NCBI GenBank assembly: GCA_017961235.1 | Contig: JAGCXQ010000031.1 | Location: 1 to 64,000, forward strand | Length of the DNA: 64,000 nucleotides | Origin: Clostridiales bacterium | GTDB taxonomy: Bacteria > Bacillota > Clostridia > Saccharofermentanales > Saccharofermentanaceae | Reading direction: 5' to 3' | In this document: in pieces, positions 60,015 through 64,000 of the stretch | How positions within the stretch are numbered: the stretch's first letter is position 1 | How the letters are laid out: each line of letters starts with the position of its first letter | The notes under the pieces: generated by a model | Database searches by the model: none | The model's input: only the letters and a program-made list of their open reading frames with translations | Told to the model about the DNA's origin: nothing | Program-made: the position numbers and the translations under genes

Positions 60015-60806
60015 TCAGAAATCCAGGAAATCCTCATCTACCGACTCGGATGTATCTTCACGAAGATCCATCTTCTCTTTATAGTCATCTTCAAGGATAG
60101 TCTCTTTAAACTCCTCTTTTTCCTTGATCCGCTTCATGAGCGGTCTGTCTTCAAACGGATTGACTGCAAGCTCGGAAATATCCACCATGGTATCATCATC
60201 TGAAGACTGAGACGCTTCTGCAGGGACAGATGTTTCCTGTTCTTTCTCTGATTCAGAATCAGCACCGATCGGAGGCATCTTAAATCCGGTATCCGGGTAA
60301 GCCATGCGGTCGATCTGCTCATCGATAGATAGCTCTTCTTCTGCCTGTGCAGCCTGTCTCTGAGCCTCTTTCTCCGCTTCTTCCGCCGAAGCAGCATCTT
60401 TTCTGGCCTGGGCCTTATCTTTCGCAGCCTGGATCGCTTTCTTCATTTCCTCGGTAGCGATCTTCTTTTCTTCTTCTTCTTTCTTCTTTGCGAGTTCTTC
60501 ACGCTCACGGCAGAGGCGTCTCAACTCCTCAGCGCGCTGGCGTTCTTTCTCTTTCGCACGGCGGATCTCTTCATTAGCAACCTCAAGTCCGAGTCTCTGA
60601 AGTTCCTCCTGCTCAGGAGAAAGCGCAGGCTTCTGCGCCAGTTCCATAACACTCTTCTTTTCCTTCTCCTGCACGGATACAGTAACTTCCAGTTTTTTCG
60701 CCGATGGCGGAGTAAAATCCGAAGCCGCATCCAGGATCTCCTGCATATCCGGCAGTTTGATCATAGACTCGAATTTATATTTTCTTTCTTTTTTCTCTTC
60801 ACTCAT
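60015..60806 (-). CDS. Acidic coiled-coil protein, unknown
   Basis: A 263-residue protein of unknown function. Residues 60-170 are a strong coiled coil rich in Lys, Glu, Arg and Ala; the flanks are acidic, with motifs such as SIDEQIDRMAYPDTGFKMPPIG and an acidic end. It has no membrane segment. It lies 15 bases downstream of the PP2C gene and is likely part of the same operon, perhaps an adaptor. Confidence 0.6.
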   Translation of the reverse strand: MSEEKKERKYKFESMIKLPDMQEILDAASDFTPPSAKKLEVTVSVQEKEKKSVMELAQKPALSPEQEELQRLGLEVANEEIRRAKEKERQRAEELRRLCREREELAKKKEEEEKKIATEEMKKAIQAAKDKAQARKDAASAEEAEKEAQRQAAQAEEELSIDEQIDRMAYPDTGFKMPPIGADSESEKEQETSVPAEASQSSDDDTMVDISELAVNPFEDRPLMKRIKEKEEFKETILEDDYKEKMDLREDTSESVDEDFLDF

Positions 60807-60821
60807 GATCCATCCCCCAAA

Positions 60822-61991
60822 TCAGATCAGTTTCAATATCAATAGGATGACCGTTACTAAAAATGCACCGGTCATAAGCAGAAATGCCCACAGCGGAACC
60901 ATCTTGGGTGCTATATCAGATGATGGTTTCTGCACTTCAGGCGCTCCGGCTTTTTCCCCGTTATCTGCCGGAATCTGCTTCTTTTCCTCATTCTTTTTCT
61001 CGCTCGTTTCTACATTTTCTGTAGAAGGAGCCGCTGTCTCTTTCTTCTCTTCCGGTTCATCCTCGGAAGGCGCCGCTCCTGCCGGCGGTAACGGTTTACC
61101 GCTGCTTAATGCCGATAGGATCTCCTGCGCATGTTTTACTTTCGGTATCCACTCCATCTGTACAGCACGGATCGTATCCTCGTGATTTCTCTGGAATTTT
61201 GCTTTCGCATCTTTCATCGAAGAGAAATCAGGAGCAGCTGTCTCCGGCAGATAGAGAATACCTACGGAAGCATCATCGGTATTCTGACCTGCGCCGATCA
61301 CGAATTCCTTGATCGTAGAAGCCAGCTCCTCTTCCGCCTGTTCTTTTCCCTTGGAAGCAAGCTCCGCAAGACGTGCTACGACCGGACGGACAAGCTGCGT
61401 GGAAGAGTCATAGACCATCTCCTCGACGCCATCCGACATCAGTACAAAAGCATGCGTCTCATCCGTTGTCGAACGAATGAAACGGAGATATTCCTGGGCA
61501 TTCGGGAACGTAATGAAGTATGTGGATGACGCATTCTCACCATTAGACGGAAGCGTCAGCGGAGATACGCCGTGCGATGAGACGCGGCAGATCAGTCCGT
61601 CTCCGATATGACCTGCAAGTACGAGGTCTCCTTTGACTGCAACAAAAAGCAGCGTACAGGAAAGTCTTTCCAGTCCGTCGAGCTGATGCTCCACAAGAAG
61701 ATCCGCCATCGAAGAATGCACGGCTGTTACCAGAAGGCTTCTCGACAGACTCTCCCTGTTTTCAAAATAGAATGCATCGAAGTGGTCACAAAGAAGGTTA
61801 GCGATACAATCTACTGCGCACTTGGAGCCGAAACGTGCATGCGTATATTTCGATCCGCCGGCGCCATCGGATACACAGACAACAGAAACACCATTGCGGG
61901 AAAGCGTGCAGGACGCATCTTCACAGGGTGTGCCACGGTTTATATGCTTATTTCCAATAAGCGAAACATTAACGAGTACGGGTTCTGCCAT
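60822..61991 (-). CDS. PP2C-family Ser/Thr phosphatase with C-terminal membrane anchor
   Basis: A 389-residue PPM phosphatase. The metal-binding residues are in CEDASC, VSDGAGGSKY, HIGDGLICRV and LMSDGVEEMVY. After about residue 265 follow a Pro/Glu/Lys-rich linker and one C-terminal span (about 366-388), so the catalytic part is held at the membrane on the cytoplasmic side. It lies between the vWA gene and the coiled-coil gene. The three-gene order kinase-vWA-PP2C resembles the TerY-P triad. Confidence 0.9.
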   Translation of the reverse strand: MAEPVLVNVSLIGNKHINRGTPCEDASCTLSRNGVSVVCVSDGAGGSKYTHARFGSKCAVDCIANLLCDHFDAFYFENRESLSRSLLVTAVHSSMADLLVEHQLDGLERLSCTLLFVAVKGDLVLAGHIGDGLICRVSSHGVSPLTLPSNGENASSTYFITFPNAQEYLRFIRSTTDETHAFVLMSDGVEEMVYDSSTQLVRPVVARLAELASKGKEQAEEELASTIKEFVIGAGQNTDDASVGILYLPETAAPDFSSMKDAKAKFQRNHEDTIRAVQMEWIPKVKHAQEILSALSSGKPLPPAGAAPSEDEPEEKKETAAPSTENVETSEKKNEEKKQIPADNGEKAGAPEVQKPSSDIAPKMVPLWAFLLMTGAFLVTVILLILKLI

Positions 61992-61994
61992 CGG

Positions 61995-62735
61995 TTACTG
62001 ATTCTCCTGAATTGCTTTGAAGAAGTCATCCATAGCCATGGCATTTCCTTCCGGTTCTGTATTGAGATTATAAAGAGCATCGTTACTCATGCTGTTCGAT
62101 ACGACGGAAGAACTACTCGAGCCGAGGAATGCGAAGAGCTTTCCGAACTGCGCGGTGCTGATGGAGATCGGCTTTTCTCTTTTGCCGGACAGACGCTGGA
62201 GCATCGGGAAATCCGCACTGCTGCCTACGCCGATATTAAACACGACGAGCTTATCGTTATCTTCCAGCTCACGGACAGCTTCGATCGCCTTTTCCATATT
62301 CTCTACGGCATTCGGGCCCTGCGGAGCACCATCGGTAATAACAACCAGCCAAGGCTGATAGTACTTGATGCCCATCTCCTTGTAGCCTTCTTTTCTCGCA
62401 TTCAGAAGTTCGAGCGCCGTAAGGATTCCTTCACCGATCGGCGTAAGGCTCGTTGTCGCCTGAAGACGCGGGATCGAAGAATCTTTACCGGTTTTTCCGA
62501 ACGGAAGGAAAATATCTACCGAACCGCCGAATGTGATGATAGCAATATCGGCAGACGATCTCGTCTCCTCATTATCACGGATAGAAGCAAAAAAGCTCTG
62601 CAGACCGTCATTTAACTGCTCGATCGGATATCCGGTCATCGAACCGCTGATATCCAGGCAGAAACAGATCGGCAGCCTTCTTCTTGTGCTGCTTCCGAAA
62701 TCCGATTTTGAAAAACCACCAACTTCATTACTCAT
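61995..62735 (-). CDS. vWA-domain protein (TerY-like)
   Basis: A 246-residue von Willebrand factor A domain with a complete MIDAS: D28, S30 and S32 in CLDISGSM, a Thr in the second loop (TSLTPIG) and an Asp in VITDGAPQGP. It is a cytosolic single-domain protein of TerY type. The gene starts MSNEVGGF after GGAGGATATA and ends 3 bases before PP2C. Confidence 0.9.
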   Translation of the reverse strand: MSNEVGGFSKSDFGSSTRRRLPICFCLDISGSMTGYPIEQLNDGLQSFFASIRDNEETRSSADIAIITFGGSVDIFLPFGKTGKDSSIPRLQATTSLTPIGEGILTALELLNARKEGYKEMGIKYYQPWLVVITDGAPQGPNAVENMEKAIEAVRELEDNDKLVVFNIGVGSSADFPMLQRLSGKREKPISISTAQFGKLFAFLGSSSSSVVSNSMSNDALYNLNTEPEGNAMAMDDFFKAIQENQ

Positions 62736-62768
62736 ACTATATCCTCCAAGATGATCCCTTCATACGGA

Positions 62769-64000
62769 TCATTTATGTCTATTTCCGAAAAATCTTCCGA
62801 ACCCGGACTTTCGTGCCTGTGGCGCTTCTTCCGGTGTCTTGGTTTCTTCCGGTTTTTTATTTGAATTAGGCGAAGCCATCGCATTCATCCTGTTCACCAG
62901 CGCACTTGCCTGTGACGGATTATTCGTCGCCGGCTTGATCGCTCGCTCCGGCGGGGGCTGTGTGGAGCCCTTAAAGGAAGGATGACTCGATTCCACTTTC
63001 TTCTTCGGTTCCGATGGCGCCTGATCGAGATGCATCTGTGCCGCATACTGATTGCGCGCTTCTTCTGAATTCATATTCGAATTCATGACCGCTTCGCGGA
63101 TACTCATCTTACCTGTACGCTTTACAGGCGGCGCCATTTCCTTCACATAATACGGGAATACGCGATAGACCTCTTCATCCTTGTACTCATGGGCTTCGAG
63201 CTTATCTCTGTATTCAGCGATCGCACAAGTCCAGTCGAGTGCATCAAAGAGTTCTCCATCGGCAAAAGCTCTGACAAACATATCCTTGAGTGTCGGAGTC
63301 AGCGCATCCCAGATCTTATCGTAACCGCCGTACGGGATCCTCTCGTTCTGGGAATTATCCACCGTATAAGGGAAAGAATGCGCTTCCATCTCATCTCTTA
63401 ACATCTCCAGGCCGTTTCTCTGTGCATAGGGGTGCTGGCCGCAGAAAAGCATGGAAAATACTAAGATGGAGATGGAATAGTCTTCATCCTGTGGACGGCG
63501 GAGGAAAGTAACGAAAGACTTGCCCCACAGTTCCGGGCGGGTAAATTCTTCTGTTCCTACAGGACACGGAAGGTCCTGATACTGGACGCTATCCATATCG
63601 ATCAGATACAGGCGGTCCTCGTTTTCGATCATGGCATTTTTCAGCTGGATATCACCGACAAGTACGCCGTGCAGATGCAGATAATTCATCACATACAGGA
63701 AAGAGAGCGTGGATTCCACGACCTGAAGTCTGGTCCATGCCGGGAAATACTTCTCCATCGCATCCGGGCCGTCAAAGGCTCTGCTGATCGTAGTACCGGA
63801 AGCCTTGCGCATCATATATCCGACAGGAATATGATTTCGCGAGAAAAGAAGGCGGCACGGCCAGCAGATATTATCGGTCTCCAGCTCAAGGGATCTCATC
63901 TTCATCAGCTTATACCAGCGGAGTGGGGTGATTCCTCCGCGATGATATACTTTTGCGACCCATTGTTCGTGCTGAGTACAGAATACGAGGCCCTCGGCAC
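62769..64000 (-). CDS. Protein-kinase-fold protein of the vWA-PP2C triad, start beyond right edge
   Basis: At least 410 residues. The reading frame is open to the right edge, so the 5' end is missing; the ATG near 63905 is only internal. The N-lobe (WVAKVYH, then LVFC) is visible at the edge. The catalytic loop is HGVLVGDIQLKNAMI and the metal-binding segment LIDMDSVQY, so D and N are kept but the HRD Arg is not canonical; this is typical of kinases of vWA-PP2C triads. The C-terminal 150 residues are disordered and rich in Pro, Ser and Asn. It should phosphorylate Ser/Thr of partners that PP2C resets. Confidence 0.85.
   Translation of the reverse strand, partial: AEGLVFCTQHEQWVAKVYHRGGITPLRWYKLMKMRSLELETDNICWPCRLLFSRNHIPVGYMMRKASGTTISRAFDGPDAMEKYFPAWTRLQVVESTLSFLYVMNYLHLHGVLVGDIQLKNAMIENEDRLYLIDMDSVQYQDLPCPVGTEEFTRPELWGKSFVTFLRRPQDEDYSISILVFSMLFCGQHPYAQRNGLEMLRDEMEAHSFPYTVDNSQNERIPYGGYDKIWDALTPTLKDMFVRAFADGELFDALDWTCAIAEYRDKLEAHEYKDEEVYRVFPYYVKEMAPPVKRTGKMSIREAVMNSNMNSEEARNQYAAQMHLDQAPSEPKKKVESSHPSFKGSTQPPPERAIKPATNNPSQASALVNRMNAMASPNSNKKPEETKTPEEAPQARKSGFGRFFGNRHK

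Follow-up and report, generated by a model that had tools for sequence, protein, structure and literature searches.

A vWA–PP2C–kinase operon with an acidic fourth gene is a core locus of one bacterial family and a candidate membrane-associated phosphorylation switch

The window analysed here, a 64,000-nt stretch of contig C5 from assembly G000, closes with four open reading frames on the minus strand (60015–64000) that encode, in this order, a protein with a Ser/Thr kinase fold, a vWA protein, a PP2C-type phosphatase and an acidic, highly charged fourth protein. A sequence-only reading of the window had described the first three as a kinase, a MIDAS-complete vWA protein and a membrane-anchored phosphatase, adjacent and in one direction, a description borne out by the reading frames, Pfam matches and invariant residues given below. 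Because the genes are separated by only 33 (kinase–vWA), 3 (vWA–PP2C) and 15 bases (PP2C–fourth gene), they are likely carried on one transcript. A promoter-like TTGTTA-17-TATAAT, recognised by consensus match only, lies in the 90 bases between the kinase gene and lysA, and a convergent glycosyltransferase-4 gene also neighbours the operon.

The kinase gene is cut by the edge of the window, which holds residues 199–607 (62769–64000, minus strand). The parent contig runs on past 64000, and the sequence retrieved there leaves the frame open and intact, giving a protein of 605–607 aa without the frameshift that had been feared beyond the edge. Two starts are available, GTG 64592 and ATG 64586; the latter is the more probable, since a GGGGG-type stretch resembling a ribosome site precedes it and members of the genus start with M-A-(D/N)-F. 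Pfam Pkinase matches the protein below threshold (E 3e-6), and AlphaFold2 with VIA-align predicts a protein-kinase fold over residues about 182–478 (Z up to 18.9). Its catalytic loop reads GDIQLKN, with xGD in place of HRD (63636–63656, minus strand), and at its metal site DMDS replaces DFG (63588–63599, minus strand); K214, G313-D314, N319, D332 and D334 are invariant in all 61 family loci. The C-terminal tail of the kinase ends in a membrane span in 17 of 61 family genomes, and most of the remaining tails finish with a basic-aromatic peptide, for example KKKFFGLF. With tail spans in only these 17, membrane attachment of the kinase in the present genome is something we infer. No zinc ribbon was found in the tail: Pkinase is the protein's only Pfam match, the tail is predicted to be disordered, and it contains 0–2 cysteines across the 61 genomes. 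Nor did Pfam return a C-terminal OB-fold, residues 486–607 being modelled at pLDDT <50.

The vWA protein (246 aa; 61995–62735, minus strand) is TerY/YegL-like, matches Pfam VWA at E 4e-15 and is the most conserved member of the set, with 65–97% identity to the other aligned sequences. Its MIDAS motif, DxSxS..T..D, is invariant in 61/61 family loci (DxSxS at 62640–62654, minus strand). The phosphatase (389 aa; 60822–61991, minus strand; Pfam PP2C_2, E 7e-37) has its metal-site acids intact; they are kept in 59–60 of 60 family members and are present in every sequence that reaches them. As these active-site residues are essentially invariant in the family, kinase, vWA protein and phosphatase all look competent. 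The C-terminal membrane span of the phosphatase (60825–60899, minus strand; VPLWAFLLMTGAFLVTVILLILKLI), which the sequence-only reading had picked out, is real: it has a hydropathy of 2.8 and recurs in 59 of 60 phosphatases of the family (a contig end truncates the other one), whereas E. coli PphC and the six PP2Cs compared from other Bacillota, seven outside proteins in all, lack it.

The fourth protein (263 aa; 60015–60806, minus strand) has a net charge of -25. It carries an N-terminal conserved motif, KYxF..xxVxxPDIxxIxxAASDF (60714–60782, minus strand), and a C-terminal acidic-aromatic motif, DEDFLDF (60018–60038, minus strand), which is DDFSEFL-like in many relatives. Across the family the protein is consistently acidic (median net charge -19) and ranges from 114 to 384 aa, varying in its charged middle and conserved at its short ends; the N-terminal block is conserved, and a C-terminal DDFxEFL or DFLDF motif is found in most genomes. 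One copy of the N-terminus is present in each of 62 good-quality family genomes and in none of 44 sister-family genomes of the order. The highly charged gene that had been noticed behind the phosphatase gene is an obligate fourth member of the set.

The kinase shows the same distribution. It is present in 108 of 115 family genomes, including all 62 of good quality, as a single copy each, and is absent from the 44 good-quality sister-family genomes (0/44). Neighbourhood comparison shows that the order and strand of the four genes are kept across five genera, with gaps of a few bases, a degree of synteny far beyond chance. Among 61 inspected loci the kinase gene adjoins the vWA gene in every case and the PP2C gene is directly next in 60; in the 61st it comes after an inserted cassette. 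ORF calling recovered the fourth gene in 58. The three apparent gaps are artefacts of ORF calling or contigs: one is a contig end, one is the G052 locus, where the gene lies beyond the cassette, and the third is G047, where a charged ORF with fourth-gene-like sequence follows the PP2C gene and the motif went uncalled. The cassette in G052 (L159, 9805–15436) resembles response regulator, sensor and ABC transporter genes and splits vWA from PP2C, with all four genes kept. Upstream, the neighbour is lysA in 36 and mutS in 24 of the 60 readable loci. In a tree of the kinase the family sequences group as one clade (support 91/96), within which subclades resemble genera. Universal, single-copy and syntenic, the operon has the pattern of a core locus passed on vertically, and low dN/dS indicates purifying selection. 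Outside the family, clear kinase relatives occur in only about four other members of the class, and close relatives of the vWA protein in 6 of 397 genomes elsewhere in Bacillota. Searches of phage, plasmid and viral contigs returned only distant vWA matches (<=42% identity). A scan of genome contigs matched only two near-identical species, and the names of two near relatives, uncultured Clostridiales RUG251 and Mageeibacillus sp. UBA3781, point to Clostridia of the rumen or gut, perhaps Saccharofermentanaceae.

What kind of system is this? The sequence-only reading had proposed a triad of the TerY-P type, and homology to E. coli YegL (35% identity to the vWA protein), YegI (28%, kinase) and PphC (27%, phosphatase) supports it: by sequence comparison, the set is homologous to YegL–PphC(YegK)–YegI and to TerY-P triads and belongs with the vWA–PP2C–kinase triads. 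In E. coli, too, a vWA protein, a PP2C and an atypical kinase with the motifs GD..N and D.D are encoded together. PMC13232886 describes a membrane-bound, autophosphorylating YegI that is dephosphorylated by its own phosphatase PphC (citing Rajagopalan et al.), and says that no condition promoting yegI/pphC expression has been defined; the kinase described here would share such anchoring. There are differences as well. PphC lacks a membrane span, YegI has its kinase domain at the N-terminus, with no PIN domain before it, and a C-terminal HHH match, and the yeg set has a different gene order and no charged fourth gene. TerY-P triads (Anantharaman et al. 2012; CoCoNuT-associated; Gao et al. 2020) likewise bring together a TerY-like MIDAS vWA protein, a PP2C and a Ser/Thr kinase, but their kinases as described (PMC11090510) carry a zinc ribbon or OB-fold at the C-terminus and have restriction or Ter genes for neighbours, whereas the family set lacks a zinc ribbon, has no detected OB-fold, occupies a fixed core locus and includes a fourth gene.

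The N-terminal part of the kinase, which lies entirely beyond the window edge, sets the family further apart. Residues 1–150 are predicted to form a PIN-fold domain, with pLDDT mostly >90. Since a structure search with the full-length model returns kinases only, the kinase domain filling the list, we folded the N-domain alone. Its best Foldseek matches are PIN domains (probability 0.99, E 0.007), and each of the top twelve VIA-align rows is either a PIN domain or a ribosome-assembly chain of Utp24 (PIN) type (Z 8.0–8.6 over 113–123 residues). Profile-profile comparison of family-only N-domains with the PIN domains of relatives gives a weak match (E 0.003, probability 10%), so that the case for PIN descent is carried mainly by the predicted fold and by an intermediate sequence, L099; a better profile-profile score was biased, as the alignment used (A4) contained two PIN-bearing relatives. 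Searching PDB sequences with a profile of the relatives' PIN domains returned nothing useful.

At the equivalent position, rare relatives of the kinase from other Bacillota match Pfam PIN_4 or PIN_12, and they keep the four PIN acids in 7/7, 6/7, 6/7 and 5/7 cases. In the family only the first acid, D19, is kept (D in 59/61, E in 2/61); the E, D and D positions retain their acid in 0/61, 0/61 and 3/61 kinases, respectively. Conserved instead are F52 (61/61), K53 (56/61), H56 (57/61) and R121 (59/61), the last charge-reversed, and close pairs show purifying selection on the N-domain (dN/dS about 0.02–0.12). Imagine that the domain were still a nuclease, and the operon a phospho-gated RNase toxin held in check by kinase and phosphatase. 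The predicted PIN fold would fit, as would the fusion of the same kinase to PIN domains with most acids kept in L098, L113, L114, L115 and L117. However, replacement of three acids and conservation of R121 make this scenario highly improbable. With three of the four catalytic acids lost, the modelled N-domain probably does not act as an RNase and serves instead as a pseudo-PIN module for sensing or docking.

The sporadic sets in other Bacillota (L098, L113, L114, L115, L116 and L117) have the closest kinase domains found, PIN-like N-domains and vWA and PP2C neighbours. They differ from the family set in that their PIN acids are mostly intact, their phosphatases have no span, no charged partner was seen and they are rare; in addition, zinc-finger CxxC motifs follow the kinase in most of them (L115a and L117 excepted), unlike the cysteine-poor tails of the family. 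The fusions of PIN and kinase, usually then a zinc finger, lie at L098 5533–10682, L113 4786–9236, L114 1282–5591, L115 3801–10936 and L117 6361–9707, in each case adjoining vWA and PP2C genes. The sequence-only reading had named kinase relatives occurring only outside vWA/PP2C contexts as grounds for rejecting the triad; in other Bacillota the opposite is mostly seen. The literature searched contained no description of such a fusion, which, together with its neighbours, is possibly a kinase-gated RNase defence module. Two further loci bear mention: in L099 (6105–9139) a TIR-domain gene lies directly ahead of a related kinase and vWA pair, and in L118 (5842–17282) a vWA/PP2C/kinase set lies near TerD genes, an instance within the phylum of a triad in genuine Ter context.

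Might the family operon itself be an anti-phage or stress-defence module, resembling those of CoCoNuT loci or the stand-alone form of TerY-P that Gao et al. tested? It comprises the same three domain families, TerY-P has been called a defence add-on (PMC11090510), and the rare Bacillota relatives have recombinase- or HTH-like genes (L098, L117), the TIR gene or TerD as neighbours. Against this, the operon is universal, single-copy and syntenic in five genera, unlike patchy defence islands, and has neither an effector gene nor a zinc ribbon. Neither TerD nor TerC, whose genes had been noted as missing from the window, was found in the whole assembly (87% complete), and TerD occurs in 1 of 81 family genomes searched. 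Neither PADLOC nor NCBIfam assigned the triad to a named family. The PADLOC TerY model also fails to match the vWA protein, but it is an insensitive model that scores E. coli YegL itself at only E 0.03. In all, the family operon lacks the tested features of TerY-P defence and Ter systems, that is mobile context, zinc ribbon and TerD/TerC, and we regard a defence role as unlikely. The triad homology of the earlier reading stands; its link to Ter stress and phage defence is not supported here.

We favour, at a probability of roughly 60%, a different reading: the four genes specify a membrane-associated Ser/Thr phosphorylation switch, probably with a housekeeping function, related to TerY-P and YegLKI and fixed as a core set of the family. 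The kinase would sense or dock through its PIN-fold domain and, by homology to YegI and PphC, probably forms a phospho-cycle with the tail-anchored phosphatase, which would reset phosphorylation at the membrane. vWA MIDAS domains often mediate metal-dependent protein contacts, and the intact MIDAS therefore makes it likely that the vWA protein assembles kinase, phosphatase and client in this way. Strict co-inheritance makes the fourth protein the best candidate for a dedicated substrate or adaptor, most likely passing on the phosphorylation state, although it could serve another partner.

One alternative would have the operon act in cell-envelope or division control, with the fourth protein acting as a tether close to the membrane and not as a substrate of the kinase. 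The anchored phosphatase, the many kinases ending in a span or basic-aromatic peptide, the fixed location beside lysA and the glycosyltransferase gene, and the architecture of the fourth protein would all suit such a role, but the gene neighbours may be chance and ten other kinase-domain matches in the genome could fill it. We consider this version improbable too, if a little less so than defence.

How might a phosphorylation switch of this kind have become fixed? Tentatively, and at somewhat less than even odds, a single domestication at the root of the family turned a conflict-type PIN-kinase/vWA/PP2C module into an indispensable membrane signalling system: the nuclease domain would have become a pseudo-enzyme sensor, the phosphatase would have gained its anchor, and a new, largely disordered partner would have become the output. 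That change ran from defence to housekeeping is what we infer from few outside relatives. Most known vWA–PP2C–kinase triads come from defence or tellurite loci of patchy occurrence, or from E. coli; what is new, and notable, is the fixation of one across a family together with a fourth gene. With a dedicated fourth protein as a ready candidate substrate or adaptor, the targets and purpose of TerY-P kinases become directly testable. The ten further kinase-domain matches in G000 lie on contigs C6, C8, C40 and C53; PP2C genes are close to most of them and FHA domains to some.
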